Assembly: GCF_000737195.2 (NCBI RefSeq)
Contig: NZ_JALM01000048.1
Location: 1-51,565 of the forward strand
Direction of reading: 5' to 3'
Origin: Sciscionella sediminilitoris
GTDB taxonomy: Bacteria > Actinomycetota > Actinomycetes > Mycobacteriales > Pseudonocardiaceae
Length of the DNA: 51,565 nt
The first letter of the stretch is position 1. Every line of letters begins with the position of its first letter. A program made the position numbers and the translations under genes. Positions 2-18,792 of the stretch are shown here, in pieces. The notes under the pieces were generated by a model. That model did no database searches. It saw only the letters and a program-made list of their open reading frames with translations, and had not been told where the DNA came from.

Positions 2-376
2 ATGGTCACCATGACCGAACAAGCCCTGCGCGACGGTATCGGCCAGGCCACCACCATGGACGGCAGCACCATCCCCGCCACCCAACTACGCAGAATCGCC
101 TGCGACGCGGGAATCATCCCAACAGTCCTCGGATCAGACGGCGAAGTACTGGACATGGGCTGCCGGGACCGCACCGCACCACCCAAACTCCGCCGCAGAC
201 TCATCGCCCGCGACCAAGGGTGTGCCCACCCCGACTGCGATCACCAGCCAGCACTCACCCAAGCCCACCACATTCAGCACCACGCCAACGGCGGACTCAC
301 CACCGAAGAAAACATGGTGCTCCTGTGCGCCCACCACCATTGGAGGGTTGATTTAGTAACATCTGGGTATGGGTAA
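2..376 (+). pseudogene. HNH endonuclease (DUF222-type), N-terminal part interrupted by the element; also cut by the window start
   Basis: The reading frame carries the C-terminal HNH nuclease core of the DUF222/HNH family found in many copies in actinobacteria. It includes a Cys-x4-Cys-containing segment (GCAHPDCD), then LTQAHHIQHHANGGLTTEEN and VLLCAHHH. The conserved continuation after CAHHH (T-L-I-H) is missing. Instead the frame runs from codon 341 into element DNA, adding W-R-V-D-L-V-T-S-G-Y-G before a stop that overlaps the integrase start. The missing 3' part is at 18664-18792. The N-terminal DUF222 domain lies outside the window, so the start used here is only the first in-frame codon. 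The chimeric product probably lacks nuclease activity because the last part of the HNH fold is lost. Confidence 0.88.
336..360. other. attL: left attachment junction
   Basis: The shared core ACCA is at 336-339. Host HNH sequence lies to its left and the element arm to its right. The arm ends in TTAGTAAC (353-360), the near-inverted partner of GTTGCTAA at the other end of the element. Each arm lies exactly 13 nt from the CA dinucleotide at 338-339, which is therefore the predicted crossover dinucleotide. Confidence 0.8.
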
Positions 377-1898
377 AGGCGCGAAGTCCCAGGATAGCCC
401 GGTGCTGGACGTGTATGCGCGGTTGAGTTTCGCCGAGGGCGGGGACACGATCAACGTTGATGATCAAGTCGAGTGGTGCACCGAGGAGGTACACGAGCGC
501 GGCGGCTCGGTGGGTGAGGTGTTTAAGGACAACTCGCTGTCGGCGTGGGATCCGAAGGTGGTGCGCCCGGACTGGAATCGGTTGATGACCCGTCTGGAGG
601 CTGGGGAATCCGATGGCGTGATGGTCCTGGACTTGACGCGTTTTTCCCGCAAGGTGATGGAAGGCGAACGGCTCATCGACCTCGCGGCGCGCGGTGTCCT
701 GGTGTGGTCACTCTCGGGTGTCTATGACTTGACTACCGCTGATGGGCGGCGGCATTTCCGTGAGGCCATGGTCGCTGCGGCTGGGGAGTCGGACAAGATC
801 AGCGAACGCGTCAAGCGCGGCCACCTACGCGGAGCACGACGCGGACGCCGCCCCGGTGGTCTGCGCGGCTACGGAATACCGGGAATGGCCCCCGTGCCCG
901 AGGGGTGGGAGCCCGGAGACCCCCGCGAGTGGGTCCCCGATGAACAGGTGGAAGCCGAGCGGGAAGTTATTCGTGAGTGCTACCGGCGTTTGCTGGCCGG
1001 GGAGACCGTGTCCGCAGTGGTGCAGGACTTGAACGAGCGCGGTCTACGTACCTTGAAAGGCTACCGGTGGCAGCGAACCACTTTGGTGAACACGTTGCGT
1101 CGCCCGGTGGTCGCGGGGTTGCGCGCGCACAACGGCGAGATCATTGGTGAGCAAAAAGACGTGACCCCGATTGTGTCCCGGCAGGAGTGGGAACGACTCT
1201 GCGCGATCTTCGAGGCACGACGACGGGGACGCCCGGCCGGGCGGGTGCACCTGTTGGCCGGACTGGTGCGGTGTGCCGGGTGTGGTCTACCGATGGTGGG
1301 CATGTATCGACGTGCGCTTCCCCCATACCCGGATGGCACGAAGAAATACGAGTACAGGTGTCTGCGGGTCGTGGATCGACCGGATGCCTGCGGACAGTGC
1401 TACATCGACGGCAAGATCGCCGACGAAGCCGTTGCCGATGCGACCAAGGCACGCCTTGCCGATCCGCAGCGCGCCGAACAGGTCGCCAAACGGGTCGCGC
1501 GCACCTCGAAGAAGCGGGAGAAACTGAACGCAGAAATGCAGCGGTTGAACGAGGACGCAGACAGCCTCTCGCAGAAGACCGCTAAGTGGGGCACCGAGCG
1601 GGTCGACAAGGCGATGACACCCATCCTGGCGCGGATAGACGAGATCAAGACAGAGCTGGCCGAATTGGACGACCAGAACGAGAGCGGCGGCACGGCCACC
1701 GGCGACGTTATCGCCGAGTGGGACCGTGCCGCCGAACAGGGCGACCTGGACGCCATGCGTTCCATGGTGCGCCGCGCTTTCCCGCGTCTGGCCCTGCATC
1801 CGCAGAAACAGGCCCGAGACCACTCTGTTAATCGGTTCGATTGGGACGGGAAGACTCTTCGCGCCGCCTCTTCTCCTCGCGGCGGGCGCGGGCGTTGA
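369..1898 (+). CDS. Large serine recombinase (site-specific integrase)
   Basis: Protein of 509 aa that should catalyse attP x attB integration. The N-terminal resolvase domain (about residues 12-150) carries the catalytic motif YARLS with nucleophile candidate Ser20, and later the conserved VLDLTRFSR segment and the SERVKRG end of the long helix. A recombinase domain follows (about 165-280). Next is a zinc-ribbon region with VRCAGCG and later CGQC cysteines (about 295-345). A charged coiled-coil (about 375-430) of the kind that controls synapsis in large serine integrases comes after it. Length is normal for the family. The start is ATG 30 bp from the predicted crossover, with only a weak ribosome-binding site; it overlaps the end of the chimeric host HNH frame by 8 nt. 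The 3' end overlaps the convergent gene at 1828. Confidence 0.93.
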   Translation: MGKGAKSQDSPVLDVYARLSFAEGGDTINVDDQVEWCTEEVHERGGSVGEVFKDNSLSAWDPKVVRPDWNRLMTRLEAGESDGVMVLDLTRFSRKVMEGERLIDLAARGVLVWSLSGVYDLTTADGRRHFREAMVAAAGESDKISERVKRGHLRGARRGRRPGGLRGYGIPGMAPVPEGWEPGDPREWVPDEQVEAEREVIRECYRRLLAGETVSAVVQDLNERGLRTLKGYRWQRTTLVNTLRRPVVAGLRAHNGEIIGEQKDVTPIVSRQEWERLCAIFEARRRGRPAGRVHLLAGLVRCAGCGLPMVGMYRRALPPYPDGTKKYEYRCLRVVDRPDACGQCYIDGKIADEAVADATKARLADPQRAEQVAKRVARTSKKREKLNAEMQRLNEDADSLSQKTAKWGTERVDKAMTPILARIDEIKTELAELDDQNESGGTATGDVIAEWDRAAEQGDLDAMRSMVRRAFPRLALHPQKQARDHSVNRFDWDGKTLRAASSPRGGRGR

Positions 1899-2358
1899 CA
1901 ATGATGTCGCACCATCCCTGAATCTCCTCCTCGGTCGGTGCCGGTAAGGCTTGCACCGATTCACGTATCCATTTCCGCTGCTGCTCGGTCAACGGCTGCC
2001 CCGGTACCGGATTCAACTCCATCCGGTACGTATAGCCTGGACCGTCGTCGCGCCGGGGACTGGCTGGTATCACCTCCCCTCGCGAACCACTCGGAAGCGG
2101 GGACGGTGACCGACGACTGCCCGACCGCGCTATAGTGGGCTGCGCACCGCGCGCGGGGGTCCCTGGTCGGGACCCCGACACCGCGTGCTCGGCCACATCG
2201 TCGGCCGAACCGTCCGAGTCCGTGTCAGCCGAGTCGTTCGCGTTGTCGGTGTCCAGGGTGCTTGCGTCTCCGGTGTCGTGGTAGTCATGGTTTCCTCGCT
2301 TTTCGCATCGTTTGCTGGTCTTGTGGGTGCCGGTTGGGGTGGTGCGTCTAGGGGCCAT
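1828..2358 (-). CDS. Basic hypothetical protein at the end of the transfer operon
   Basis: About 176 aa from the ATG at 2358, chosen because a GGGGGCG ribosome-binding site lies about 5 nt upstream and the start overlaps the stop of the FtsK-like gene by 11 nt. The first half is low-complexity, rich in Asp, Ser and Thr. The C-terminal third looks folded and charged (LTEQQRKWIRESVQALPAP, then a Glu/Arg-rich tail). Small proteins of this general kind are often found downstream of FtsK-like transfer genes in actinobacterial elements; I assign no function. The 3' end overlaps the convergent integrase by 71 bp, which is unusual and might let transcription of each gene interfere with the other. The frame's natural amino-acid composition argues that it is coding. 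Confidence 0.6.
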   Translation of the reverse strand: MAPRRTTPTGTHKTSKRCEKRGNHDYHDTGDASTLDTDNANDSADTDSDGSADDVAEHAVSGSRPGTPARGAQPTIARSGSRRSPSPLPSGSRGEVIPASPRRDDGPGYTYRMELNPVPGQPLTEQQRKWIRESVQALPAPTEEEIQGWCDIIVNARARREEKRRREESSRPNRTD

Positions 2359-4759
2359 CAGCGCCCCCAAGACGGTCGTTGTTTTCGGCGGGGAGGGAGG
2401 CACCGGGTGGTGGTGTCGAACCCCATTTTTGGGGGGTTTCCGGTGTTCCGCGGTTGGTGCTTCCCCGCCTCCCCGCTGGCTGTTTTGCCTGGTCAGTTTG
2501 GGGAGGATGGTGCGGGGAGGTGGCGGGGAAAACTCCCCGCTTCCCCGGTGATTCCCCGGCTTCCTCCCCGCCTTTTGCCCTGTCTGGTTGGGTGTTGGTT
2601 TCGGTGTGGTGGGCGCGGTCGGCGAGGGCTCGGGTCACGTCGGTAGCGACCACGTGCATCTGTCCGCCGTGTAGCTTGCGGGGACGCTGCCCGTGTTCGA
2701 GTAGCGCGGCGCGCAGGTCCCGCGCGGTCCATGACTCGTACTCGTCCGGGTTGTGCGCGGACAGCCGAGAGAGCACGACCTGAGTCCGTACCTGGGCCTC
2801 GCCGTCGAGCACGTGCGCGATATCGGCCAGGTGATCAACCCGCGCCGTCTCGTCCTCGTGTGCCTCGGGTGCGGTGATCAGCTCGCGGCCCGCCTCGGTG
2901 ATCAACCCGAGAGCGCGCGCAACCACCGGGGTGACGAGGTCGGTGCCGTCCTCGAACGGCACATAGAACGTCCGGACGAGTTCCCACGGGGCGTCGGTGA
3001 CCCCGACCGCGACGCAGGTGCCCCGATCGGCTTTCATGCGCAGCTCGGTAGCCCGAATACCCGCCCGATACCGCCCGGCACCGAGGAGGCCGTCGTTGGC
3101 GATGTGATCCGACACCGCGAACGCCACCCCACACGACACGTTCCGCGTGACCTCTTTCGGAATACTGTCCTTTGTGGGCGACTGCGTCGCGAGAATCAGG
3201 ATGATGCCGTACTTGCGGCCCCGCTTGATCAACCGCACCGCCAGTTCTTCGGCCTGCTTCCCATACTTGCGGTGCTGGAACAGTTCGTGACACTCATCAA
3301 TCGCGAGAATCAGCGGATGCAACCCGAGACTCTTACGGTCAGCGAGTTTGCGCGACACTTTCGGTGGCTGCCCCGGTTGTGCCGACAGGGTTTGCCCGCG
3401 TCGCTCCATCTCGTCCAGTAGTGCGGCTAGCGCGGTCACCGCGTCGGCGGCAACCTGATCGTCCATGCCCATCCTGTATTGCGATAACCGGGGTGCCAGG
3501 GGTGCGAAGTCGGGGCTTTCTCCCATCACGAACACCCGCAACTCCACCGTGGGATCAAGGCAGGCACCCAACAACAAGGTGCGCATCGCTGAGGTTTTGC
3601 CCTGTCCAGGGCGGCCACCGATCAGATAGTTGGACTCCAAAAGCGGTGCGTTGATGATCAGGCCGCGCTGAGTCAGTCCAAACGGGACACCCTCGAACAC
3701 ATCCACCGCGCCGTCCCACAACAGCGGCCAGTCGCCCGCGCCGCCGCCGAGTTTGCCTTTGTCGGCGATCCAGAGATCCAAGACGCCGTCTTCGTCGGCC
3801 TTGGTCGGCCACGTCTCCAACGACGCCCGCCCCAAATTCGCGGCCAGGGTTGATCGCCGGTCGGCGACCATGTCGGCCGTGGCACCGAGCGGCAGCCGCA
3901 CCCGGGCGAAGGTTCCGTCTCCATCCATACGCGGCGGGGTCAGGTATACGAGTTCGCCACCGTTTTTGAAGAACGCGTTCAGCGGGGCCACACCCAGATG
4001 TGCGAGTGCGCGGGAGATCATGCGTTCGTCCACCCACGAGTCCGCGTCGTCTCGGTCTGGTTGGGTCAGCCATCCCGCACCGGGTGTGCGGTCGCGTCCT
4101 TCCCAGATCGCGGCGACGGCCCAGCCGATCGGGCCGAGGATCACCAGATAGCGGGCCATGGTCGCCAGCACGGTGCCGAGGATGTCGCGGATGTCGTAGA
4201 TGGTGGCGAGCCAGGCGGGCATGTCGGCCCGGTCCACGATCTTGTTCAACAGTGCGAGAACCACGAGCAGCGTCACACCGGCAGCGGTGCTGATCACGGT
4301 GCGCCGTAGGACGATGCCGAGTTTCGCCCAGCGTGCACGGGCGTCCGCTCGAATCGTCTCCTGTGCCTCGCGGCGTGCTTCGGGATCACCGGAGAGCCGT
4401 GCGGCTCGGGCGTCGGCGCGCAGATCGGCATGCGTGACCCACGTCCAGGCTTTCCTGATCCACCGGCCGTGACCGCGCAGCAGGAACCACACCAGCCGCG
4501 CCACATCGACCGGTGCTTTTCGGAGCCGGTAGCCGAGTACCGAGCGCACGCGCGCGTATCGGTCGGACTCGCGCACTCGCCCGATGATGCGCGCCGTGCA
4601 CTCGATCGGCACCCGAGACCACCCCGCCACCCGCGCCCGCGCGACAACCTGGTCAGGTTCGTGCTGTCCGGTGACCAGTTCGCCGTCGAACACCTTCACT
4701 TCCAGCTCGGTGCCCTCGTGGCTGTTCGGGCTGTTCTGGTTGTGCTCGTGGGGGTTCAT
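2348..4759 (-). CDS. FtsK/SpoIIIE/TraB-like DNA translocase (conjugal transfer pump)
   Basis: 803 aa from the ATG at 4759, chosen for its GGGGGTGC ribosome-binding site and ATGA overlap with the upstream gene. This family moves double-stranded DNA through a membrane pore and is the single essential transfer protein in AICE-type elements. The order is a charged N-terminus, two hydrophobic segments (about 154-174 and 203-220), then the ATPase. Walker A is GGRPGQGKT (about 381-389) and Walker B is LILAIDE (about 483-489), followed by ILILATQSP typical of FtsK motors. The last ~80 residues are Gly/Pro/Ser/Arg-rich and probably disordered; I see no canonical gamma winged-helix there. It is the fifth gene of an overlapped operon. 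Membrane location and a DNA-transfer role are inferred from family and context. Confidence 0.9.
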   Translation of the reverse strand: MNPHEHNQNSPNSHEGTELEVKVFDGELVTGQHEPDQVVARARVAGWSRVPIECTARIIGRVRESDRYARVRSVLGYRLRKAPVDVARLVWFLLRGHGRWIRKAWTWVTHADLRADARAARLSGDPEARREAQETIRADARARWAKLGIVLRRTVISTAAGVTLLVVLALLNKIVDRADMPAWLATIYDIRDILGTVLATMARYLVILGPIGWAVAAIWEGRDRTPGAGWLTQPDRDDADSWVDERMISRALAHLGVAPLNAFFKNGGELVYLTPPRMDGDGTFARVRLPLGATADMVADRRSTLAANLGRASLETWPTKADEDGVLDLWIADKGKLGGGAGDWPLLWDGAVDVFEGVPFGLTQRGLIINAPLLESNYLIGGRPGQGKTSAMRTLLLGACLDPTVELRVFVMGESPDFAPLAPRLSQYRMGMDDQVAADAVTALAALLDEMERRGQTLSAQPGQPPKVSRKLADRKSLGLHPLILAIDECHELFQHRKYGKQAEELAVRLIKRGRKYGIILILATQSPTKDSIPKEVTRNVSCGVAFAVSDHIANDGLLGAGRYRAGIRATELRMKADRGTCVAVGVTDAPWELVRTFYVPFEDGTDLVTPVVARALGLITEAGRELITAPEAHEDETARVDHLADIAHVLDGEAQVRTQVVLSRLSAHNPDEYESWTARDLRAALLEHGQRPRKLHGGQMHVVATDVTRALADRAHHTETNTQPDRAKGGEEAGESPGKRGVFPATSPHHPPQTDQAKQPAGRRGSTNRGTPETPQKWGSTPPPGASLPAENNDRLGGADGP
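2389..2570. repeat. Cluster of nine TCCCCG/CGGGGA hexamers in the 3' end of the FtsK-like gene
   Basis: Hexamers begin at 2389, 2462, 2470, 2513, 2524, 2534, 2542, 2553 and 2565, in both orientations. The copies at 2523-2529 and 2534-2540 form a 7-bp inverted repeat, GCGGGGA-AAAC-TCCCCGC. The cluster lies in the region encoding the disordered tail of the DNA-pump protein. In Streptomyces plasmids the clt transfer locus, bound by TraB at short repeats, lies near traB. The analogy is inference, and codon use in a Gly/Pro/Ser-rich tail could contribute. Confidence 0.5.
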
Positions 4760-5409
4760 GAACGCACCCCCTTCGCAGTGGTGGTGGCGCGCTCCCGCAG
4801 CTCGGCGGCCAGCCGTGAGGACAGACCGCGCGAGCATCCGGTCACTTCCCGCACCCAGGCCGGGGTCACTTCGACTTCCGGTGTCCAGGCGGCTTCGGCG
4901 ACGGCGAGGTAGTCGGCGAAGCTACGTCGCGAACGCCTGCCGTTCACGACCGGCACGGCGTTCACCGCCTCGACCACCCGTGGTTCTTCGCTGGTGGCGG
5001 CTTCGGTGAGCTTGTCGCGCAACACCGTGACCGCTTCGGCGGCGACGAACACCACCAGCGGTGGGACCGAGTGCAGCACCACCCGCGCCGCACTCCCGGA
5101 CGCATAGGCGGCCCAGGTGTTCATGACATACGTCGCGGCGAGCGTGAACCACTTCGCCACCCGAACCCAGCCGCCCATCCCGATCCGATAGCGCGCGGTG
5201 GTCTGCTCAGCACGCAGCACGGCCAGCAGCACCAGCGACACCATCGGATCGAGCAGCCACGCCGCGAACCAACCCAGCGACCACAGTGCAGCACCGTTCG
5301 CGGCGAACTGCTGCACGTTGGTCATCGTGAACGCCAAACCGAGCCCAATACCTGCCCAGCACAGCCGATCCACTTGCCGCCGAACCTGCTCCACACGCTC
5401 GCTGCTCAT
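4756..5409 (-). CDS. DUF2637-like membrane protein with C-terminal HTH-like segment
   Basis: 217 aa. The N-terminal two-thirds contains about four hydrophobic segments and matches the DUF2637 pattern from memory: CWAGIGLGLAFTMTNVQQFA, then AAWLLDPMVSLVLLAVLRAE. Proteins of this family usually sit beside FtsK-like transfer genes in actinobacterial mobile elements and are suspected to help form or localise the transfer pore. The C-terminal part (about residues 165-210) is soluble and contains PAWVREVTGCSRGLSSRLAA, which resembles a winged helix and may touch DNA. ATGA overlaps on both sides imply translational coupling with the genes at 5406 and 2348. Confidence 0.75.
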   Translation of the reverse strand: MSSERVEQVRRQVDRLCWAGIGLGLAFTMTNVQQFAANGAALWSLGWFAAWLLDPMVSLVLLAVLRAEQTTARYRIGMGGWVRVAKWFTLAATYVMNTWAAYASGSAARVVLHSVPPLVVFVAAEAVTVLRDKLTEAATSEEPRVVEAVNAVPVVNGRRSRRSFADYLAVAEAAWTPEVEVTPAWVREVTGCSRGLSSRLAAELRERATTTAKGVRS

Positions 5410-5753
5410 CGGCGACCACCACCCCGACGACCACGGGAGCCAGACGCGCCGTCGACAGTGGTCACGGTCAACGCCCGCGCCAACACCAACCCCGCCAACA
5501 GGTCAGGAATACCCAGCGCGCCAACCAAGAGATAGGTGTTCGCCGAGTACGCGATCAACACCCACTGGACCCCGCCGAACACGGCCCCGGCAAGCGCGAC
5601 CCGGCCCGACAAGGTGGCCAGCTTCGCGCTCTCCCGCGCCGCCGTAGCGATCCGTTTCGCGCGGCGGACACTGGAGCGCCACACCAACACCACCACGACC
5701 AGCACACCGAGCCCGACCAGGATCTCCAGCGGAGACAGACTGATCACCATCAC
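5406..5753 (-). CDS. Small membrane protein of the transfer operon
   Basis: 115 aa with a hydrophobic N-terminal helix (ILVGLGVLVVVVLVW), a basic and Ala-rich amphipathic stretch, two further hydrophobic segments (about 50-90), and a basic Arg/Gly tail. I recognise no domain. It overlaps the genes on both sides by 4 nt, so it is almost certainly co-translated with the DUF2637-like protein and the DNA pump. A role as a small pore or membrane-anchor partner (similar in position to Spd proteins of Streptomyces plasmids) is inference from location only. Confidence 0.65.
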   Translation of the reverse strand: MMVISLSPLEILVGLGVLVVVVLVWRSSVRRAKRIATAARESAKLATLSGRVALAGAVFGGVQWVLIAYSANTYLLVGALGIPDLLAGLVLARALTVTTVDGASGSRGRRGGGRR

Positions 5754-6097
5754 CGATCACCGCCCCACTGCTCCGCGCGGCGTGCCCGCCAGATCGGATA
5801 CAGGTCCCGCCGATCCTCATCCGGCAACGCACCGAACACACCCACCTGGTAGGGGCCTGACCAGCGCAATTCCAGCTCAAGACAGGCCGTCTGGAACTGG
5901 CATCCCGAACACACCCGCTCGGCAAGGTTCCGATCAGTCACCGCCTCGCCGGTCAACACGGGCGGCTCGGGCTCGGTCATCGCGACCATGCACGCACCCT
6001 CAGCCCCCACCACCTCAGCGAGCTTGTCCGTTTCCACCTCCGCGAACCGGTCCAACCGATCCGCGATACTGCGCAACCTGTCCTGGTGCTCCATCAT
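5750..6097 (-). CDS. WhiB-family iron-sulfur regulator
   Basis: 115 aa from the ATG at 6097, which overlaps the upstream stop (ATGA). Four cysteines are spaced C-x26-C-x2-C-x5-C (GACMVAM, then VCSGCQFQTACLE), the WhiB ligand pattern for a [4Fe-4S] cluster. GVFGAL follows, a variant of the G-[VI]-W-G-G turn in which Trp is replaced by Phe. A basic segment, RRDLYPIWRARR, follows at the C-terminus. WhiB-like proteins normally bind a sigma factor and respond to redox or nitric oxide. Here it is the second gene of the transfer operon, so it may tie transfer or excision to host state. That link is inference; the family call rests on the cysteine pattern. Confidence 0.82.
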   Translation of the reverse strand: MMEHQDRLRSIADRLDRFAEVETDKLAEVVGAEGACMVAMTEPEPPVLTGEAVTDRNLAERVCSGCQFQTACLELELRWSGPYQVGVFGALPDEDRRDLYPIWRARRAEQWGGDR

Positions 6098-6285
6098 CGA
6101 CCACCCCCACTCAGCACGCGGGTGATCTCGTGAGCGGGGATGACCAGGCGCGAACGCCGTCGCACAGTTCGAATGGAACCGCATCGCACCGCGTGGCACG
6201 TGGTGTTGATATCGATCCCGAGCAGCCATGCGGCTTGGCGAATCGTGTAAGTCCGAGAACTTGAAGAAGACATAGGAGTGCCCAT
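6094..6285 (-). CDS. Xis-like small helix-turn-helix protein
   Basis: 63 aa, first gene of the leftward operon. It contains TYTIRQAAWLLGIDINT followed by a basic segment (VRRRSRLVIPAHEI), the shape of the MerR/excisionase-like HTH_17 proteins that act as recombination directionality factors or regulators in integrative elements. The start at 6285 is supported by AAAGGAA about 9 nt upstream. It ends in an ATGA overlap with the WhiB-like gene. Large serine integrases need a directionality factor for excision, and this is the best candidate in the element. A regulator of the transfer operon is equally possible. Confidence 0.68.
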   Translation of the reverse strand: MGTPMSSSSSRTYTIRQAAWLLGIDINTTCHAVRCGSIRTVRRRSRLVIPAHEITRVLSGGGR

Positions 6286-6297
6286 GGAAGAATTCCT

Positions 6298-6340
6298 TTG
6301 AACAAGAAGAGCTTATTTCAAGACTATAATGTTTATTTCA
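6298..6340. promoter_or_regulatory. Divergent promoter/operator region with tandem TTATTTCA
   Basis: The 166-bp gap between the leftward transfer operon and the rightward XRE gene is AT-rich by comparison with the surroundings. TTATTTCA occurs at 6313-6320 and 6333-6340, exactly 20 bp apart (two helical turns). A related CATTTCAAG lies at 6398-6406. TATAAT (6325-6330) lies between the first two copies and is a -10 candidate; TTGAAC at 6298-6303 is too far away (21 bp) to be a standard -35. The arrangement suggests repressor sites over a promoter, with the XRE protein next door as the likely ligand. Confidence 0.45.
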
Positions 6341-6451
6341 GCGCTAATTGCGCGAGAGGTGTCCCGTGTGGCGCAAAACGCGGCCCTATTGGCGACACAT
6401 TTCAAGCATTTCCCGCTAATCTCGGCGCGTAGGCGGAGCACGGAGGGATGC

Positions 6452-6835
6452 GTGTCGGAAGACTGGGCGGCGGTCGCGCGGGCCATAAGAGCGCGCGTTG
6501 ACGAGCTGGGGTGGCGGCAGCGCGAGCTCGCCGAGCGCTCCCGCGTCTCGCAGGCGACGGTGCGCGAGATCCAGCACCACACGGTTGAGCGTCACCGCAG
6601 CGACCGGACCCTGGAGTCGCTGTCGGCTGCTCTCGGGTGGCATCCGCGGCACTTGCTTGCCGTGCTGCGCAACGAGAATCCTCCGGCCGTTGACGATCCG
6701 GGCACCGATGAGGCAACGACGCTCTCGGCGAGGTTGGATGCGATGCAGATCCAGCTCGACCAGGTTGTCGAACGGCTCGACAGCCTCCAGTCCGACGTTT
6801 CGACTGTGGTCAAACGCGTGAGGGCCGATGACTAG
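6452..6835 (+). CDS. XRE-family HTH regulator
   Basis: 127 aa from the GTG at 6452, chosen for GGAGGG about 4-5 nt upstream; the longer upstream frame has no comparable site. An XRE helix-turn-helix occupies roughly residues 8-70 (WRQRELAERSRVSQATVREI is the HTH core). The C-terminus (about 85-125) is a predicted coiled coil with heptad-like Leu/Val spacing (MQIQLDQVVERLDSLQSDV), so the protein is probably dimeric. It is transcribed away from the transfer operon and is the natural candidate repressor of the tandem sites at 6313 and 6333, in the way KorSA/Pra-type regulators control AICE transfer. The functional link is inference. Confidence 0.85.
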   Translation: MSEDWAAVARAIRARVDELGWRQRELAERSRVSQATVREIQHHTVERHRSDRTLESLSAALGWHPRHLLAVLRNENPPAVDDPGTDEATTLSARLDAMQIQLDQVVERLDSLQSDVSTVVKRVRADD

Positions 6836-6915: not shown

Positions 6916-6966
6916 TAGTGCGGATCAGCGCGGAAATCGGGGTTGGCTTGGAAACCGGCGGCGCTC

Positions 6967-8517: not shown

Positions 8518-8879
8518 CCGGTGCCAACTGGCACAGCGGCAACGCCGCGAAGGATGGGCAGGATACGCGCGGCTGGATTCTCGGCCACTTCATCGACCCG
8601 GCCGAAGGCGTTCGCCACTCCACAGACGTAGAGGTCAAGTGGTTCAACCACCCTGCGGGCGACAAGCGCGCCGAGTGGACCACCGACGACCAGCGCACCA
8701 CCCTCCTCCTGCTCATCTCCGGCCACTTCCGCCTCGACCTCACCACCCAAAGCGTCACCCTCACCGAACAAGGCGACTACGTACTGTGGGGACCGGGCAT
8801 CGACCACTCCTGGGAAGCCCTCGAAGACACCACCATCATGACGGTCCGATGGCCATCCGGTGAACGCAGCCCAGCGTGA
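8511..8879 (+). CDS. Cupin-like small protein coupled to HTH-Nudix A
   Basis: 122 aa from the ATG at 8511, overlapping the end of the Nudix gene (an in-frame ATG at 8502 is an alternative). The sequence is rich in predicted beta strands, with GDYVLWGPGIDHSWEALED near the C-terminus, like the second half of a cupin metal-binding barrel. Tryptophans and acidic residues are abundant (KRAEWTTDDQRTTLLLLISG). Homologues are, from memory, common in actinobacteria, where they are sometimes mislabelled signal peptidase I; no signal-peptidase dyad or membrane anchor is present. The overlap implies that its product works with the Nudix protein, perhaps in small-molecule sensing or conversion. It is followed by a strong terminator. 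Confidence 0.7.
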   Translation: MVTGANWHSGNAAKDGQDTRGWILGHFIDPAEGVRHSTDVEVKWFNHPAGDKRAEWTTDDQRTTLLLLISGHFRLDLTTQSVTLTEQGDYVLWGPGIDHSWEALEDTTIMTVRWPSGERSPA

Positions 8880-9076: not shown

Positions 9077-9256
9077 ATGACAGGAGCGTCCGAGCAGGAG
9101 GATCAGCCAGCGCTCCCGATGCCTGGATCGGGGAGCAAGGACGACTGGGAACACAAACGAAAGGTAGCGATCGCAGCATGGGAGATGGGGAAGGCAAAGA
9201 CGCAGCCGCACCCACGCCGTTCGACCCCCGAGTCGAAGAAGGGGAACCGTCGATAG
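9077..9256 (+). CDS. Small charged hypothetical protein
   Basis: 59 aa from the ATG at 9077, chosen for the excellent ribosome-binding site GAGGAGGTG about 7 nt upstream; the frame upstream of it is non-coding in look. The product is hydrophilic: an acidic N-terminus (TGASEQEDQ), a short amphipathic segment (DDWEHKRKVAIAAWEMGKAK) and a basic tail. It overlaps the next gene by 79 nt in another frame, so the two are probably co-expressed. No family recognised. Confidence 0.6.
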   Translation: MTGASEQEDQPALPMPGSGSKDDWEHKRKVAIAAWEMGKAKTQPHPRRSTPESKKGNRR

Positions 9257-11046: not shown

Positions 11047-11253
11047 ATGACCGAGCGTTACCAACTACACAAGGTTCCCAGCGCCGACCCAGATGTTGCG
11101 AAAGCCGTGGATGAACTGCTCGATGACCCAGATGCTTACTTCTCGGAGCGTCGTACCTCACGTATGCGCGAGGCACACGAAGAAGTAGAAGCTGCCGTGG
11201 TGCGCCACATGGCGAGCAAACACCGCCGTTTTACGAAGCGCCGTGCGGATTGA
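11047..11253 (+). CDS. Small charged helical hypothetical protein
   Basis: 68 aa from the ATG at 11047; a GTG at 11038 is equally possible, with GGGGAG lying 4 nt before it and 13 nt before the ATG. The product is rich in Asp/Glu at the N-terminal half (DPDVAKAVDELLDDPDAYF) and Lys/Arg at the C-terminal end, and is probably all helical. It ends inside the 3' end of the convergent HTH-Nudix B gene (22-bp overlap). No family recognised; size and charge would suit an antitoxin or DNA-binding partner, but there is no direct evidence. Confidence 0.55.
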   Translation: MTERYQLHKVPSADPDVAKAVDELLDDPDAYFSERRTSRMREAHEEVEAAVVRHMASKHRRFTKRRAD

Positions 11254-12763
11254 GCTCAGGTTCGGCAGCAGCCGTGTTCTCCGATTGGCCGCTGGTACGG
11301 ATACCAAGCTCGTTGTCAACTGGCGATCGGCGTGATCTTGGCGTCTCGCGCACACAGGTTCTGTTTCTGCCACTGAGATGTTGAACGCCTTGCAGCAGGG
11401 CGAAAAGCCCTTCGTTGCTCCATGACTCGTCCGCGACCAGCTCGGCGAGGGCGGCGCGGTTACAGGTCGAATGGAGCTGGAGGCCGTCGGCTTCCCAGTT
11501 GGCTTCGATGGCCCCGCCGTATCGGGTCCAGAACGTCGGATCGTCAACCACGGCGAGGGTGGCGAACTCATAGTTGCCGCTGACGAGGTTGATGCCGACG
11601 CCTGTGTGTTCGATGCGCAGGGCGTCATGTTCGGTCAGCCACCGCATGGGGGCGGAGAGGCGGGACGGGTGCATGGGGTCGGCCGCGCGGGTTTCGCCGA
11701 GTGTGTTGTCCACGTCGGTGCGTGCGAACAGTTCTTCTTCGAGCTCGCGGCGTACCGTCTCTTCGATCGCGACGTCTGCCCGCGGATCGGTCATCGGCTG
11801 ATGGAAACCTTTCGGGACCACCGCAAGCTTTCCGGTCGCGTTGAGCACACGTCCGGAACGCTTCTGGACAACAAGGGCATAGTCGGGCTCGGGGCGGCGC
11901 GCATCGGCGGGGCGGGCGAACGCGCACAAGGTGGCCACACCGCCTGCGCACAGACGCCCGGGCAGATCGAACACACTTGCCAGGTCTGGTAGCCAACGGT
12001 CGCGTAGTGGCATCTTTCCGTTGCGTGCCAGGGAATCCGCGAGCTCAGCCTCAAGCAGATCACTGGTAACGGCGTATTCAGCGAAGCGGGCGGGGCCGAA
12101 CACCGCTTCATCCTCGATCCCGAGTAGGCGGTAGATCTGTGCATCGGTGAACCGGATGTCGAGCACAAGCCCCTCGGCCAGCCGTTCAACGGCCGCGCGT
12201 GCCGCCGTGCCATCCAGCGAGACACGGCGAGCATCGCCTGTCGCCTCGTACTGCGCCGTGGTTGGCGCTCCATTGAGCCATTCCGGTCGCGTCGCGATCG
12301 TGGTCACGATATTCTTTCCACCGAAACTGGCCCGGTAGAGCGCGTCGGCACCATAGTACTCGGCGAGTATCCGCACCACGGCCTCGCGACTGGTTCCCGT
12401 TCGATGTGCGCTGCGTTCGTACACCGTGGTCACGTCCAGCCGCGACCATCGATCCGCGACCTTTCCCCGCGCCGTACCAGCTTTCCACCCAGTTTGGGTA
12501 TCGATCCACGCGCACACCGACGCCACGCCGGACAGTGGTCCCTCATCACGACGTGGCGCAGCAAGCAAGTCTTGTAACCGCTCGTGCGAGACCCCGAGCG
12601 AGTGAGCGAGTTTCGGCCACAGGTACGCCACTGGCGTGGTTTCCCCCGCCTCCCACCGGATCACCGTCGAACGGTCGATGTGCAGCATTCCGGCAAGGCT
12701 TTCCTGGGTATGCCCAGCGGCCTTGCGGGCCGTGGCGAACGCGCGCCGATGTGCGACAGCCAT
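11231..12763 (-). CDS. HTH-Nudix fusion protein B (paralogue of A)
   Basis: 510 aa. The N-terminus is a clear XRE helix-turn-helix (residues about 8-66; HTQESLAGMLHIDRSTVIRW). A long helical middle region follows. The C-terminal Nudix-like region has KLAVVPKGFHQPM and RRELEEELF (about residues 312-346), then DPMHPSRLSAPMRWLTEH, SGNYEF, FWTRYGGAIEANWEADGL and SWSNEGLFALLQG, all shared with protein A. The last ~45 residues are a divergent hydrophilic tail. There is no ribosome-binding site before the ATG, but TACCGT (TAnnnT) sits at -12 to -7, as in leaderless actinobacterial transcripts. The two paralogues differ in HTH type, so they probably regulate different targets while sharing a ligand domain. 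Confidence 0.78.
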   Translation of the reverse strand: MAVAHRRAFATARKAAGHTQESLAGMLHIDRSTVIRWEAGETTPVAYLWPKLAHSLGVSHERLQDLLAAPRRDEGPLSGVASVCAWIDTQTGWKAGTARGKVADRWSRLDVTTVYERSAHRTGTSREAVVRILAEYYGADALYRASFGGKNIVTTIATRPEWLNGAPTTAQYEATGDARRVSLDGTAARAAVERLAEGLVLDIRFTDAQIYRLLGIEDEAVFGPARFAEYAVTSDLLEAELADSLARNGKMPLRDRWLPDLASVFDLPGRLCAGGVATLCAFARPADARRPEPDYALVVQKRSGRVLNATGKLAVVPKGFHQPMTDPRADVAIEETVRRELEEELFARTDVDNTLGETRAADPMHPSRLSAPMRWLTEHDALRIEHTGVGINLVSGNYEFATLAVVDDPTFWTRYGGAIEANWEADGLQLHSTCNRAALAELVADESWSNEGLFALLQGVQHLSGRNRTCVRETPRSRRSPVDNELGIRTSGQSENTAAAEPELNPHGAS

Positions 12764-13287: not shown

Positions 13288-13288
13288 C

Positions 13289-13528
13289 ATGACCGGACGC
13301 CACACACTCCATGGCGGACGACACCGGCCACGGACCGGCGCGGCCACGGTGCGCGCGATCACCAGCCGCGCGCCGATCAAGGGGGACTGGTTCGACCCCG
13401 CCGTGCGCGAAGCCGTGAACCGTGCCGCACGCGCGCAAGGTGTCTGCGAACCGTTCCGGCTCCGCCGTCACGAACGAGACTCCGAACAAACCGCCCCGCA
13501 ACCGGACAGCACCTATGTCGCCCGATGA
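13289..13528 (+). CDS. Small basic hypothetical protein
   Basis: 79 aa from the ATG at 13289, two bases after the previous stop. The product is very basic, with many Arg and His in the first 30 residues (GRHTLHGGRHRPRTGAATVR), then a short helical segment (DWFDPAVREAVNRAARAQG). It could bind nucleic acid. Its 3' end overlaps the next gene by 14 nt, and the packing of the three frames is the main evidence that it is a gene. Confidence 0.5.
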   Translation: MTGRHTLHGGRHRPRTGAATVRAITSRAPIKGDWFDPAVREAVNRAARAQGVCEPFRLRRHERDSEQTAPQPDSTYVAR

Positions 13529-13802
13529 TCAGCACCCCGAGTTCGGGCCGGAACACGCGGACAGCACCCGGTACAACCCCGAACGACTACCCGAGTCCGT
13601 GCGCAAGATCTACAAGCGCTTCCGCGCCCCGTGCTCATTCTGCGGCACCTACGCCGAATACCGGCACCTGATGATCTCGGCAGGCGATCACGAGACCTAC
13701 ATGTGCGACCAGTGCGTCACCGAAGCCGCACACCTGATCGCCGGGCATCACGCGGCACCACAGGGCACAGTGATTGAGCTCGGACGCGGGGAAACCCGCT
13801 GA
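13515..13802 (+). CDS. Small protein with ClpX-type C4 zinc finger
   Basis: 95 aa from the ATG at 13515. Cysteines occur as PCSFCGTYAEYRHLM and YMCDQCVTEAA, i.e. C-x2-C ... C-x2-C, with the spacing and flanking residues of the ClpX N-terminal zinc-binding domain (which reads CSFCGK ... ICDECV). In ClpX this module dimerises and captures substrates or adaptors; a stand-alone version could act as an adaptor or simply as a zinc-ribbon protein. It starts within the previous gene and ends flush against the convergent gene at 13803. The family resemblance is clear in the motif, but the function is open. Confidence 0.7.
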   Translation: MSPDDQHPEFGPEHADSTRYNPERLPESVRKIYKRFRAPCSFCGTYAEYRHLMISAGDHETYMCDQCVTEAAHLIAGHHAAPQGTVIELGRGETR

Positions 13803-14383: not shown

Positions 14384-14935
14384 ATGAGTACACCAGGGCC
14401 GGGGCAAGACCAACCCGAGGGGCTGCCACTGCCCGGTACGCCAGGGGCGACACCGCTGACCCCGTTCGGCGAGCAGATAGAGGCGATCCAGCACGGCACG
14501 CTGCCCAGCGGCACGGCAGGGTTCGACCCGAACAACCCCGGCACCCCCGAAGAGCAGTACAAGCGCGCTGCCTACCTGCACAACGCGGGCCTACCACCCG
14601 ACCCGGTAGCGCCACCGGGACCCAACGACGGGTACATGTACTCACCGAGTCAGATGCAGGGCTACATCACTCGGGCCGAAGCCGTCGCCGAACGAATCAA
14701 GCGCCTCGCTCAGAATCTTGAGTACGCGCAGGGCCTTGCGAAGCCAGCAGCTCCCGACCCGAAAAGCCGGGAGTATAACAAAGCTTGGAAGGACTCTTTG
14801 CAAGTCGTCATCGATGAAATGGGCGGAGGAGCACAGTTTGCCGATGACTGGGTGGACAGCATGAAGAAAGCGAAGGCCGATTACGAGCGTAACGAACACG
14901 AGAACGCGCGGAACTTCAAAAGGGACGAAGCGTGA
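14384..14935 (+). CDS. Hypothetical helical protein, first gene of the type VII-related operon
   Basis: 183 aa, start supported by AAGGGGAG about 5 nt upstream. The first ~85 residues are Pro/Gly-rich and likely flexible. The rest is helical: GYITRAEAVAERIKRLAQNL, then a second long helix with ADDWVDSMKKAKADYERNEH. Length and helix-pair layout are reminiscent of ESX-type partner proteins, but the only W-centred turn (DDW) is not a clear WxG. The gene overlaps the lipoprotein gene by GTGA, so its product is made together with the secretion-related proteins that follow. No certain family. Confidence 0.62.
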   Translation: MSTPGPGQDQPEGLPLPGTPGATPLTPFGEQIEAIQHGTLPSGTAGFDPNNPGTPEEQYKRAAYLHNAGLPPDPVAPPGPNDGYMYSPSQMQGYITRAEAVAERIKRLAQNLEYAQGLAKPAAPDPKSREYNKAWKDSLQVVIDEMGGGAQFADDWVDSMKKAKADYERNEHENARNFKRDEA

Positions 14936-15531
14936 AGCGGGCACCTATCGCAATCGCCGGTAGCGCGATCGCCGCACTGGTCATTGCCGGTTGCGGAAGC
15001 ACCTTCCCGGACGCGACCCCACCGCCAGCCTCGACAAGCAGCGCGCCTAAAGATTACGGAGCCCCGCGCGTACAGACTCCCTTGACCGTTGATCGATATC
15101 GCATGAACCCATGCGGAATGGTCCCGACAGGCGCTCTTTCTTCCCTAGGGTTCACAAAGCCAGGCCAGCCAGCCGACCAGGTCAAAGGCGCCGACGGGAA
15201 GAACGTTCGAATGTGCAACTGGAACTCCGGCAGAAAAGCGCTCGGCATTGGTCTTCTGGGGCAGGGACTGAAGGCTCAGTATCAGAACAAGGCGTTGATT
15301 CCGGAGACGTTCAAGAAGTTCGAGCCAACCACCATTAATGGGTATCCGGCCTTGCATTTTGAAGGTGGCAAGGAATCACAGAATGGCGTCTATAACCTTG
15401 ACCTGGGTCTGAGTGACAATCAAATGGCTCTGATTCAGGCGAATGATACTTCTAGCCTGGAAAACGCGAAGAAAATCGCGGAAACGGTGGCAAAGGCGGT
15501 TGTTCAACAGGCGAAGAGTGGGGGGAGGTAG
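14932..15531 (+). CDS. DUF3558-like lipoprotein
   Basis: 199 aa with a lipoprotein signal peptide: basic start, hydrophobic core and lipobox LVIAGC with Cys21 as the predicted lipidation site. It is followed by a Ser/Pro-rich spacer and a domain with two conserved cysteines (NPCGMVPTGALSSLGF and VRMCNWNSG), the DUF3558 pattern seen in many copies in Pseudonocardiales and mycobacteria. It would sit on the outer face of the cytoplasmic membrane. The GTG start overlaps the preceding stop. DUF3558 lipoproteins are frequently encoded next to PPE-like/EspG-like genes, as here; their function is not established. Confidence 0.82.
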   Translation: MKRAPIAIAGSAIAALVIAGCGSTFPDATPPPASTSSAPKDYGAPRVQTPLTVDRYRMNPCGMVPTGALSSLGFTKPGQPADQVKGADGKNVRMCNWNSGRKALGIGLLGQGLKAQYQNKALIPETFKKFEPTTINGYPALHFEGGKESQNGVYNLDLGLSDNQMALIQANDTSSLENAKKIAETVAKAVVQQAKSGGR

Positions 15532-15533
15532 TC

Positions 15534-16910
15534 GTGGCGGGTGCGGATGGGCAGCAGATCTACCAGTGGCTGGTAGAGCAGAAACTCGGGTCTGAGTCGT
15601 GGCTGAACAGCAAAGACGCGGTGTTTGCCGCTGTCCGCGAGTTCCACGCGATCAAGGACGAGGTACACAAGCTCGCCGCCGAAGTCGAGTCCGGCTTTCA
15701 GGGTAAGGCCGGTTCGGCGGCCTCGCGGGGTTTGGGGCCGTTGGCGGTGGTATTCGAAACGGCAGCCCCGAAAGTCGAGCACGCCCAAGACCTGACGCGC
15801 GCTCAGGCCCAGACCTTCGATGAGGTCCACCCACGTATCAAACCCGTCCCTCCCATGCCCGCCGCGCCTACCGGTTTGGGAAATCTCGCGCTCGCGGGCG
15901 ATGCCGCGTTCGGGGGTGGGCTGATTCCGGGTAGTGCCGTCTCGAACTACAACGAGGCGATCAAGGCATCGGCGGATGCCGGGGCCAACAACGTGCACCA
16001 CTACACGAACCTGGCGAACGCGACGGACTACAACACGTCGAACCTGCCGAAACAGTACGGCCCGCAGCAGGCCGAGGGCGGGAAAATCGGGGTCGGGGAC
16101 CCGCAACTGAAATCCACAGGCGGACACCCGGTCACGGTGCGGCCCCCGTCCACAGGCGGTGGCGGTAGTGGCTCGGGCTCGGTGGCGTCCGCGTCGGGAT
16201 CGGGTGGACAGTCCGCGCGCGTCAGCCCCACCCCGCATGTCGGCGGTACCGGGGGCGGGAGCGCGCCGCCTGGTGGACACGCTTCTCCCGACAATCAGGG
16301 AGCGGTCGCACAGCCTCCCTCGGTGGGTGCCGGTTCGGGGCCGTCGGCGGGCACGAACACCGCTGGGTATGCACCACCGGTCGAACCGGGATACACCGGC
16401 CCCGGTACAGGTACCGGGGCGGGGACGAGCCCGTACGCCGGAACCGGGACTGGTGCGGGTTATCAGGGCGGCTCGTATGGCGGTGGTGGCGGGTTCCTCG
16501 GTGGCTACGGCGGGGGCTACAACACCACCGGTTCCCCGCGCAGCGGCAGCGGTCCACGTGGTGCCGGGTTCGGGGAAGGCACCGGCCCGCGTAGCGGCAG
16601 CGGTTCCGGTCCTGGTGGGCGGGGTGCGGCCGGTAGCGGACCGAAGGGTGCGGGACCGCGTTCCGGGGCCGGTCTAACCGAAGAACCGAGCGCGTCGGGC
16701 AGTCGCGGCACGACCGGCGCGACCGGGCGTTCTGGGTCGAGTGGAATGCCGATGTCCGGTGCGGGGCGGGGTAAGCAGGAGGACAAGGAGCACCAGCGCA
16801 AGGACTTCCTGATCACGCGGGAGAACGGTAACGAGATTGTCGGGGAACTGCCCCCGACCATTGCGCCGGTGATCGGGGAAGACCCGAAACCACAGGAAAA
16901 GAAGGAATAG
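15534..16910 (+). CDS. PPE/WXG-like type VII secretion substrate with Gly-rich tail
   Basis: 458 aa from the GTG at 15534, preceded by GGGGGGAGG. The N-terminal ~170 residues are helical (QQIYQWLVEQKLGSESW, then VREFHAIKDEVHKLAAEVES and long helices), the layout of PPE/WXG100-type ESX substrates of Pseudonocardiales. Residues about 200-400 are low-complexity Gly/Ser/Pro with repeats such as GPRSGSGSGPGG. The C-terminal ~45 residues are charged (KQEDKEHQRKDFLITRENGN). No classical signal peptide is present, as expected for ESX export. It is followed 7 bp later by an EspG-like chaperone gene, the normal partner of PPE proteins. No ESX membrane component is in the element, so export would need a host ESX machine. 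Confidence 0.75.
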   Translation: MAGADGQQIYQWLVEQKLGSESWLNSKDAVFAAVREFHAIKDEVHKLAAEVESGFQGKAGSAASRGLGPLAVVFETAAPKVEHAQDLTRAQAQTFDEVHPRIKPVPPMPAAPTGLGNLALAGDAAFGGGLIPGSAVSNYNEAIKASADAGANNVHHYTNLANATDYNTSNLPKQYGPQQAEGGKIGVGDPQLKSTGGHPVTVRPPSTGGGGSGSGSVASASGSGGQSARVSPTPHVGGTGGGSAPPGGHASPDNQGAVAQPPSVGAGSGPSAGTNTAGYAPPVEPGYTGPGTGTGAGTSPYAGTGTGAGYQGGSYGGGGGFLGGYGGGYNTTGSPRSGSGPRGAGFGEGTGPRSGSGSGPGGRGAAGSGPKGAGPRSGAGLTEEPSASGSRGTTGATGRSGSSGMPMSGAGRGKQEDKEHQRKDFLITRENGNEIVGELPPTIAPVIGEDPKPQEKKE

Positions 16911-16917
16911 ACCGATC

Positions 16918-17697
16918 GTGCTTCCCACAGGGGAACTACTGTGCGTCGGTGCTGACCTTGAACGCGCGGTCGCGCACTTCGGTGTCGGTGAACTGCCCCG
17001 CGTGCTACGCGGCACACCCGTATGGCGCGACACCGGGGAGGACCGCGCGGCGACGCGTGCCTCCCTGGAAACCCTGGACAAAGCCGGGCTACTCGAACCC
17101 AACGGGCGCCTTGACCGGGACGTGACAGTCACACTGGAGGCGCTGTGTCAGCCCGAGCTGGCCTATTTCGGGTGGTTCGCTGTCGGCGGCGAGCAGTGGA
17201 ACGCGATAGCGGCCCGACGCGGCCCTGAGGCCGTGCTCGCCGCCTACGCAAAAGGCGGGATCTACATTCGCCAAATCAACCCCGACGGGCTGATCAAGGC
17301 ACTGGACGCGGAACTACCGCTCGGAGAACCGGCCGAGTTCGCCCCCATCTGGTACCCACTCGACAAACCCGTGCCCGAACCCGCGATCGGGGACATTTTC
17401 GTGGACAACAACTACACCCGCACCGAAGACGACCTAGACCTCATCCACACCCTCGTCACCAGCCGCGACGGCGGCGGCGAAGTCTTCGTACAAACCCGCG
17501 ACCGCAGCGGCCGTGTCCGCGAATCACCCACCGCCCTCGGTGTGGTCACCGGAAACCACGGCACCTGGCTCAACACCCTGCACACCAACCACCACGGCGA
17601 CCGCTACCTATTCTGCCTCCCCGCCACCCCAGACGCGTTCGCTGAACAACTCGACGTACTCCACGAACAAGCCATCGTGACAATCCAGAACTCATGA
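16918..17697 (+). CDS. EspG-family ESX secretion-associated chaperone
   Basis: 259 aa from a GTG 7 bp after the PPE-like gene. EspG proteins bind the tip of PPE proteins in the cytoplasm and keep them soluble for type VII export. Supporting pattern: length about 250-260, an alternating strand/helix make-up, the ELAYFGWFAVGGEQWNAIAA segment, and the C-terminal TALGVVTGNHGTWLNTLH and YLFCLPATPDAF, typical of actinobacterial EspG-like proteins. The position directly after the candidate substrate agrees. It is the last gene of the operon that starts at 14384. Family assignment is from recognition, not search. Confidence 0.75.
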   Translation: MLPTGELLCVGADLERAVAHFGVGELPRVLRGTPVWRDTGEDRAATRASLETLDKAGLLEPNGRLDRDVTVTLEALCQPELAYFGWFAVGGEQWNAIAARRGPEAVLAAYAKGGIYIRQINPDGLIKALDAELPLGEPAEFAPIWYPLDKPVPEPAIGDIFVDNNYTRTEDDLDLIHTLVTSRDGGGEVFVQTRDRSGRVRESPTALGVVTGNHGTWLNTLHTNHHGDRYLFCLPATPDAFAEQLDVLHEQAIVTIQNS

Positions 17698-17789
17698 GCT
17701 CGGCGCCGGAAGGACCAACAGCGCCATAACGCGTCCCTGCACCGCGCCTATTTCCTCTGAATCAACACAAGCGTATGTGCGTGACCTTG

Positions 17790-17820
17790 TTGACCTCGAC
17801 CGTGGTCGAAGTCCTAGCTT
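17790..17820 (+). promoter_or_regulatory. MerR-type promoter upstream of the VOC gene
   Basis: TTGACC (17790-17795) and TAGCTT (17815-17820) are separated by 19 bp, the over-long spacer typical of MerR-family activated promoters. The spacer contains the dyad TCGAC-CGTG-GTCGA (17796-17809), extendable with one mismatch to GACCTCGAC...GTCGAAGTC. Such promoters are twisted into register by a MerR-type dimer. No MerR gene is encoded beside it. The 164-bp gap 17698-17861 holds nothing else that I can see. Confidence 0.65.
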
Positions 17821-17861
17821 CATAGGGTCAGCGACCGTACAGAATCTGGATGGTGTCAGCG

Positions 17862-18569
17862 ATGGCAGGCATGAAGATTGACAAGGTCGAGCTCGCGGCC
17901 CCCGAAGTTCTACTTGAAGACCTCGAAACGTTCTATCGGACACAACTACACATTCCGGTCGTATACGATGATTCTCGGCTACGACTACAGATCGGCCACG
18001 GCACCATCATTTTCCACCCAGTCACCGCAGAGCGAGATCCATTCTATCACTTCGCTTTCCTCGTGCCTGGAAACCGATTCGCCGCAGCGTACTCATGGCT
18101 AGCCGATCGAGTCGAAATCCTTGCCGAAATTGACTCCCAGAATACGGTGATCGACTTCGCGTCATTGAACGCTCAGGCCTGCTACTTTCACGACCCCGCT
18201 GGCAACATTGTCGAGCTGATCGCACACCGTGGGATCGCCGAGTCAGCGACACCCGACGCTGCATTCTCCGCTGACGAACTCGTTGGCGTCTCGGAAATCG
18301 GACTGGTCACTCCCGACAAGCCCCAGGCCGCGCGTGCCCTCGATGAAACCCTTGGACTCACAGTCTGGCAAGGCGAGCTGCACCGCAGTGACAAGCTGGC
18401 ATTTCTGGGACGACAAGCCCACACCCTGATCCTCGCCACCCCCGGCCGTGGATGGCTGCCAACCGGCCGACCCGCCGAAGCGCATCCCGTCCGGGTTGAT
18501 GTGACCGGCGCACGCCCCGGTCACATCAACCTTGCCAACGCCCGATACCAGGTACGCGGCCTCACGTAG
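17862..18569 (+). CDS. VOC-superfamily protein (glyoxalase/bleomycin-resistance fold)
   Basis: 235 aa from the ATG at 17862, chosen for GGATGG 8 nt upstream; ATGs at 17850 and 17871 are alternatives. Two VOC half-barrels are visible. The first contains KVELAAPEVLLEDLETFYRT and ACYFHDPAGNIVELIAHR, the classic final strand with a metal-type Glu. The second starts at EIGLVTPDKPQAARALDET and is shorter, ending without a clear metal residue. Such proteins bind or isomerise small molecules, or sequester antibiotics. The upstream MerR-type promoter suggests induction by a small toxic or redox-active compound. A perfect 15-bp hairpin lies in its last ~25 codons. It is the last gene of the element, and its GC is lower than the host's. 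Confidence 0.78.
   Translation: MAGMKIDKVELAAPEVLLEDLETFYRTQLHIPVVYDDSRLRLQIGHGTIIFHPVTAERDPFYHFAFLVPGNRFAAAYSWLADRVEILAEIDSQNTVIDFASLNAQACYFHDPAGNIVELIAHRGIAESATPDAAFSADELVGVSEIGLVTPDKPQAARALDETLGLTVWQGELHRSDKLAFLGRQAHTLILATPGRGWLPTGRPAEAHPVRVDVTGARPGHINLANARYQVRGLT
18494..18531. repeat. Perfect 15-bp inverted repeat near the right end of the element
   Basis: GGTTGATGTGACCGG (18494-18508) and CCGGTCACATCAACC (18517-18531) with an 8-nt loop. It lies inside the 3' end of the VOC gene, 38 bp before its stop. It would fold strongly in RNA on either strand, so it could act as a terminator insulating the element from the host. Coding constraint does not explain such exact symmetry. Confidence 0.6.
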
Positions 18570-18642
18570 CGACCTCTGGTCAAGCAACACACAGCCTCTA
18601 GACTGCGCTGAACCGTTAGTGATAACAGACCAGCTCATGACT

Positions 18643-18665
18643 GTTGCTAATGTAATGCTTGACCA
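18643..18665. other. attR: right attachment junction
   Basis: The element arm GTTGCTAA (18643-18650) is followed after 13 nt by the CA dinucleotide (18664-18665) of the shared ACCA core (18662-18665). Host HNH sequence continues to the right. The arm mirrors TTAGTAAC at attL with 7 of 8 matches. Confidence 0.8.
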
Positions 18666-18792
18666 CACTCTGATCCACAACACAGCGTGGAAGGTCCGAA
18701 TCCACAACGGCAAACCAGAATTCACCCCACCCGAATACCGGCCGTTCCATTGCGGAAAACGGCATTTTGTGACCTCGGCGCAGGGCCGCTAG
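18664..18792 (+). pseudogene. HNH endonuclease, displaced C-terminal part
   Basis: The frame reads H-T-L-I-H-N-T-A-W-K-V-R-I-H-N-G-K-P and ends with TPPEYRP, the standard tail of DUF222/HNH endonucleases (a Trp followed by a predicate on the following text and a Pro-rich end). It is the exact continuation of the fragment at 2-339. It has no start codon or ribosome-binding site of its own apart from an ATG contributed by the element at 18655, so it is probably silent while the element is integrated. The amidase gene starts 11 bp after its stop. Confidence 0.85.

Follow-up and report, generated by a model that had tools for sequence, protein, structure and literature searches.

phiRv1 of Mycobacterium tuberculosis is located in REP13E12 (PMC9317374), and REP13E12, HNH endonuclease and DUF222 have been named as one category (PMC10589994). 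The actinomycete integrative and conjugative element (AICE) Faln2929 of Frankia alni carries a serine recombinase and disrupts the putative endonuclease gene Fraal2928, and its excision was detected by nested PCR (PMC3218068). Distantly related serine recombinases have also been described to converge on one gene, with magnesium chelatase and prolyl isomerase as examples (PMC10083194). In this report, we analyse a 51,565-nucleotide stretch of DNA from Sciscionella sediminilitoris (contig NZ_JALM01000048.1, or C48; the whole stretch is hereafter the window), in which an 18,326-bp element splits a DUF222-HNH (13E12-type) gene. We regard it as very probable that this is an integrative, AICE-like element inserted by a large serine recombinase into one member of the DUF222-HNH family; its ends, the architecture of its att sites, the unoccupied sister and orthologous sites and its gene content are read directly from the DNA.

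As with phiRv1, a serine recombinase element lies inside the repeated 13E12 (DUF222/HNH) family; however, phiRv1 is prophage-like and has been described as resembling a phage-inducible chromosomal island (PMC10654092), whereas the element of the window has an FtsK-type backbone. As with Faln2929, a serine recombinase element interrupts an endonuclease gene, but Faln2929 has RepSA and a pMR2-type Tra (PMC3218068), and no Rep was recognised in the window element. Such insertions are already known, and the present finding is a well-resolved further case of a known event. The first-pass annotation of this DNA had put forward a repeated nuclease family as the integration target, which holds, although the idea is not new, given phiRv1 in REP13E12 (PMC9317374).

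Junctions, target gene and sister sites

The host gene occupies positions 1-339 (left half) and 18666-18792 (right half, with the stop TAG at 18790-18792), both on the forward strand. The left-half frame runs from 2 to 376 with host sequence up to 339, and gives Pfam matches to DUF222 (25.4 bits, cut-off 24.4) and, slightly below the cut-off of 21.4, to HNH (21.2 bits). ACCA is common to both ends of the element (336-339, the attL core, and 18662-18665), and the DNA joined through it reads C-A-H-H-H-T-L-I-H in frame. The arms of attP are inverted repeats, GTTGCTAA-N13-CA-N13-TTAGTAAC, and their symmetry narrows ACCA to the dinucleotide CA (338-339 and 18664-18665), which in the joined gene supplies the opening two bases of the codon for the third His in C-A-H-H-H. 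The outer arm motif has 8 of 12 matches when centred on CA, against no more than 5 at any of 16 alternative shifts, and among 20,000 shuffles the observed 10-bp match was reached by 7 and the 25-bp match by 82. The left arm motif, TTTAGTAACATCTGGGTATG, lies at 352-371 on the forward strand, and attR, placed by the symmetry of the arms, comprises the right arm GTTGCTAA-N13 followed by CA (18643-18665). Inverted arms around a central dinucleotide are the attP architecture of large serine recombinases (PMC3783163, PMC5311408). A degenerate form of the arm pattern was found in one of 394 genomes of the class, namely the source genome; ten stretches in IMG/VR also fitted it, none of them with a relative of the integrase, and were dismissed as chance.

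The integrase gene (369-1898, forward strand) encodes a large serine recombinase of 509 aa with Resolvase, Recombinase and Zn_ribbon_recom domains all above cut-off and a match to the integrase family phrog_95, and one copy was found in the source genome. The start codon ATG of this gene shares bases with the stop codon that ends the truncated host frame (ATGGGTAA, 369-376), so that a host promoter could drive the integrase. Together, these data bear out the 18.3-kb serine-integrase element splitting an HNH gene that the first-pass annotation had proposed, and refine to CA the ends that it had fixed within a few bases by ACCA. Its protein-coding attB in an HNH nuclease gene is likewise upheld by the Pfam matches of the left half, by the sister copies and by the corresponding site of a congener.

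The source genome (7.4 Mb in 215 contigs) contains 28 DUF222 matches, 27 of them above the Pfam cut-off. When 40 of 77 candidates were scored against the left half, at least 28 matches outside the window were obtained, of which 19 extend to position 339 and the other nine end before the site. All 19 run on through the junction as a single alignment (79-88% identity), with CA at the crossover position in every case; their agreement with the reconstructed site is 31-37 of 42 bases around CA and 47-54 of 62 bases in ungapped 62-base windows. Matches to the right half only (L047, L057 and L060) were excluded from this count of intact sites. The many related target sites per genome that had been anticipated therefore exist as candidates. 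For phiRv1, several REP13E12 copies reportedly serve as attB, an observation attributed to Bibb and Hatfull in 2002. At least six other DUF222-HNH copies retain full-length open frames of 406-442 aa; some copies, such as L047, appear to be internally deleted. DUF222 genes also sit at the ends of several contigs (for example C70, C156, C52, C79, C112, C3 and C80), and the family therefore breaks the assembly.

With contigs ending in DUF222 genes, the split gene might be suspected of being an assembly chimera, in which two DUF222 copies were fused through the repeat. We consider this barely credible, because the symmetry of the att arms centres precisely on the junction and because both flanks find their counterpart in the congener G001. 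On the right, synteny with G001 extends through the gene stop and the amidase; the amidase region has 91% DNA identity, and the same place in G001 holds an unoccupied copy of the gene. On the left, the region upstream of the G001 gene matches the start of contig C112 of the source genome; the end of C112 carries the missing 5' half of the DUF222 frame and, as judged by eye, abuts base 1 of the window in frame with a one-base overlap. The target gene was therefore probably full-length before the insertion. It had been predicted that a relative should hold an uninterrupted gene with the joined sequence, and such an ortholog, uninterrupted at the junction, is present in G001: one alignment spans the junction, and the C-terminus is nearly identical to that encoded by the right half. 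Although free of the element, this ortholog (L118, 450-1490) has decayed to a pseudogene through frameshifts and has lost part of the HNH region to a deletion.

We propose that the attP of the circular element, whose inverted arms stand 13 bp to each side of CA, underwent recombination with an attB in one DUF222-HNH copy. The cut would have fallen on bases one and two of the codon for the third His in C-A-H-H-H. Such a site would be dependable for the element, because the crossover dinucleotide lies on a codon kept by all 19 sister sites. The insertion would truncate the nuclease within the HNH helix: the interrupted host frame ends CAHHHWRVDLVTSGYG, the part lost carries H377 and W381 (the same in 10 of 10 aligned relatives), and the predicted model places the cut inside helix 370-378 of the HNH domain (mean predicted local distance difference test score, pLDDT, 52; most ten-residue HNH blocks 72-87; block 351-360, 51). 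Because the cut removes the rest of this predicted helix with H377 and W381, loss of nuclease activity is likely. Excision by the integrase, probably with a directionality factor, would restore the gene, and movement from cell to cell would likely depend on the FtsK/SpoIIIE translocase. Beyond what the sequence shows, we infer an active, transferable element, an inactivated nuclease and a choice among the copies.

An interruption that can be restored in frame, in a gene that was probably intact earlier, might also be a regulated switch, in which insertion and excision turn the nuclease off and on as in programmed gene-interrupting elements. At least 19 other sites are uninterrupted, however, and relatives of the integrase target other positions or no DUF222 gene; moreover, given the six or more other full-length copies and the pseudogene state of the G001 ortholog, we find no support for a regulatory switch and judge it highly improbable.

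Gene content and class of the element

Downstream of the integrase gene, and overlapping its 3' end, lies a small open reading frame (ORF; 1828-2403, reverse strand), in which a 39-residue stretch near the C-terminus is 61.5% identical in L092, the locus with the closest integrase. It is followed on the reverse strand by genes for an FtsK/SpoIIIE-family translocase of 829 aa (2348-4837; PF01580, 36.1 bits, with matches to FtsK structures), which is a putative conjugative DNA pump, for the backbone proteins p217 (4756-5409; no Pfam match) and p115 (5406-5753), and for a WhiB-like protein (5750-6229; PF02467, 25.8 bits). On the forward strand are genes for a helix-turn-helix (HTH) regulator, hth168 (6329-6835; HTH_3, 28.3 bits), for p524 (6943-8517), with an HTH-like N-terminus, and for a cupin-like protein (8502-8879; Cupin_2, 17.1 bits, below cut-off). 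The HTH protein hth510 (11231-12763, reverse strand) is a paralogue of p524 (45% identity), and the two paralogues are usually convergent around the cupin gene. We take a stretch in the C-terminal region of p524, and one in hth510, to be Nudix-like, as judged by eye; the structure prediction of p524 (mean pLDDT 43) was not used. Pif, the conjugal immunity factor of pSAM2, is a Nudix protein (PMC3218068).

Further genes on the forward strand are cargo. They encode a ClpP-fold, SDH-type protease-like protein (9178-10095; PF01972, 36.5 bits), a ClpX-type zinc finger protein (13515-13802; PF06689, 37.6 bits), a DUF3558 protein (14932-15531; 59.3 bits), a 458-aa protein with no family match (15534-16910), an EspG-family protein (16918-17697; PF14011, 115 bits) and a VOC-like protein (17850-18569; TxDE, 20.5 bits, below cut-off). 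The 458-aa protein may be PPE/WXG-like, to judge by its position in the gene order. The row of DUF3558, 458-aa and EspG genes (14932-17697) is a type VII secretion-associated cargo within a mobile element, and it had no match in L092 and its companion contig L112 or in the 14 backbone loci compared below.

Homologues of the p524/hth510 type were found at E 1e-60 in at least 28 of 397 genomes of the order, our own included, with three candidates scored per genome. For comparison we took the 16 other genomes that scored best, left out G321 and G280, and used 20-kb windows around the 14 loci obtained. Homologues of FtsK, p115, the WhiB-like protein, hth168, p524, the cupin-like protein and hth510 are present in all 14, and p217 in 12, and the gene order is that of the window except in L170, where hth510 is on the opposite side. 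Serine recombinases of another lineage are present in 12 of the 14 (E 1e-10) and adjoin ftsK in 11; those of L160 and L164 are fragmented, and none was detected at this threshold within the 20-kb windows of L166 and L170. This other family, of which two members were checked by Pfam, barely matches the window integrase (23% identity, E 1e-4, for L158), and no DUF222 piece was found at E 0.01 in any of the 14 loci. The simplest reading of these sequences is an integrase exchange onto a widespread backbone, because the backbone is common and the rarity lies with the window integrase. An exchange between elements seems to have affected ftsK as well, since the FtsK of L170 (7326-9374, genome G168) is 63% identical to that of the window and those of the other 13 loci 25-29%.

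The target, a 13E12/DUF222 repeat gene, and the type of recombinase are those of phiRv1 (PMC9317374), and a prophage or phage satellite of that kind, rather than a conjugative-type element, has to be considered. There are weak secondary matches in this direction, of the FtsK protein to a terminase family (1.4e-8), of the integrase to tail and head families and, far under the cut-off, of the SDH protein to a ClpP-related head maturation protease. However, these weak matches aside, no capsid or virion genes were detected by Pfam or, for 10 element proteins, by PHROGs, and a virion family was never the best match of a protein scanned. In addition, the backbone is of the FtsK-WhiB-HTH-cupin kind, and although 399 of 50,697 phage records contain a match to the integrase, every one is below 60% identity. 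We thus regard a phage origin as very unlikely and retain the AICE-like element. The AICE set has been given as a tyrosine or serine integrase, an FtsK/SpoIIIE translocase and a replication initiator (RepSA, RepAM/DUF3631 or Prim-Pol) (PMC3218068). The integrase and the translocase, with a predicted role in transfer, are both present here; the element is called AICE-like, and is not filed as an AICE, because no replication initiator was recognised among the ORFs scanned.

Relatives of the integrase and the HNH domain as a target

At least three of the 397 genomes, our own included, have a match to the integrase (three candidates scored per genome), and the closest integrases found are those of L092, from a Pseudonocardiaceae metagenome-assembled genome, and L091, from Micromonospora. 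L092 likewise targets a DUF222-HNH gene: its left end adjoins a DUF222 5' part, and a matching right end, L098, adjoins an HNH 3' part on another contig. The geometry of the arms, GTTACAAA-N13-TG-N13-TTAGTAAC, equals that of the window, and the left arm motif is largely kept. In contrast to the CA within CAHHH of the window, L092 is cut at the Trp codon of PPSW/C (the slash marking the cut), upstream of the first HNH His, and TG forms the first two bases of that codon. The right end L098 also adjoins an IS66 gene and mce-type genes, and could stem from another copy that has decayed. L092 encodes homologues of p115, the WhiB-like protein, p524 and the cupin-like protein together with a 26%-identical FtsK, and L112 carries a homologue of hth510; p217, hth168 and the cargo had no counterpart in L092 and L112 at E 1e-3.

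Several results weigh against an inserted AICE-like element directed to this gene family. No second strain with the same element was found, the closest integrases being 67% (L092) and 59% (L091) identical, and L091 is not in a DUF222 gene; the integrase lineage is therefore not tied to the DUF222 target. Neither a directionality factor nor, among the element ORFs scanned (18 + 5), a replication initiator family was identified, the latter as judged by Pfam. The left flank consists of two contigs joined by synteny and frame, with no overlap of 10 bases or more between C112 and C48.

We searched 38 integrase loci with a DUF222-HNH profile; 30 came from the integrase search and the others were L091, L092, L094, L095 and L113-L116. 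Of these, L061 is the window itself, and L062 recurs as L094 and L092 as L113. DUF222/HNH pieces adjoin three distinct integrases, those of the window, L092 and L071. L092 was found through its likeness to the window integrase and is for this reason left out of the independent count, which is one (L071) of the 29 other integrase-search loci, with 1.5 kb of flank each. The integrase of L071 (genome G057) is 33% identical to that of the window over the first 305 residues. The sole DUF222-HNH matches of G057 are two halves of one gene, 8.6 kb apart, which when joined at a shared CTGGT give NNLVLVCSRHHTLIH in frame (cut NNLV/LVC), with DUF222 and HNH both recognised by Pfam in its left half. This third case is weakened by attP arms without clear symmetry (best 10/28) and by an integrase that is read in two frames, so the copy may be dead or misassembled.

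We tentatively suggest, as a reading that is somewhat doubtful, that serine integrases repeatedly use the HNH domain of these DUF222/13E12 nucleases as a landing pad, at different codons (CAHHH/TLIH, PPSW/C and NNLV/LVC), the first two having been reached after a single integrase lineage had diverged. The window integrase cassette would then have been swapped onto an FtsK-WhiB-HTH-cupin backbone, re-addressing the element to a family of at least 20 copies; that a nuclease is disabled in the process may be an added advantage. In the magnesium chelatase and prolyl isomerase cases (PMC10083194) the target gene is likewise shared, but here the positions within the domain differ, and the three cut positions in one HNH domain may be the new part of our finding. 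The literature on DUF222, 13E12 or endonuclease genes as integrase targets, in which coverage of subscription papers was small, yielded no description of the element or of one HNH domain targeted at several positions. IMG/VR contained no relatives of the integrase and no DUF222-HNH alignment, and the 50,697 phage records gave one weak DUF222-HNH match (28% identity).

Implications for DUF222 families

Several features are open to direct reading here: the precise point of the cut, the sister sites left unused, and two further elements that interrupt this nuclease domain at other positions. The window supplies attL, attR, attP and attB in resolved form for a new serine integrase, and one genome offers no fewer than 19 natural candidates for attB that are closely alike. 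Such a set is a direct route to asking how serine integrases discriminate between close sites. The L092 enzyme, with 67% identity, another site and another dinucleotide, amounts to a retargeting experiment done by nature. If the landing-pad reading holds for the HNH domain in general, integration hotspots could be predicted from DUF222 families, which would also be a place to seek elements whose ends are otherwise hard to find.

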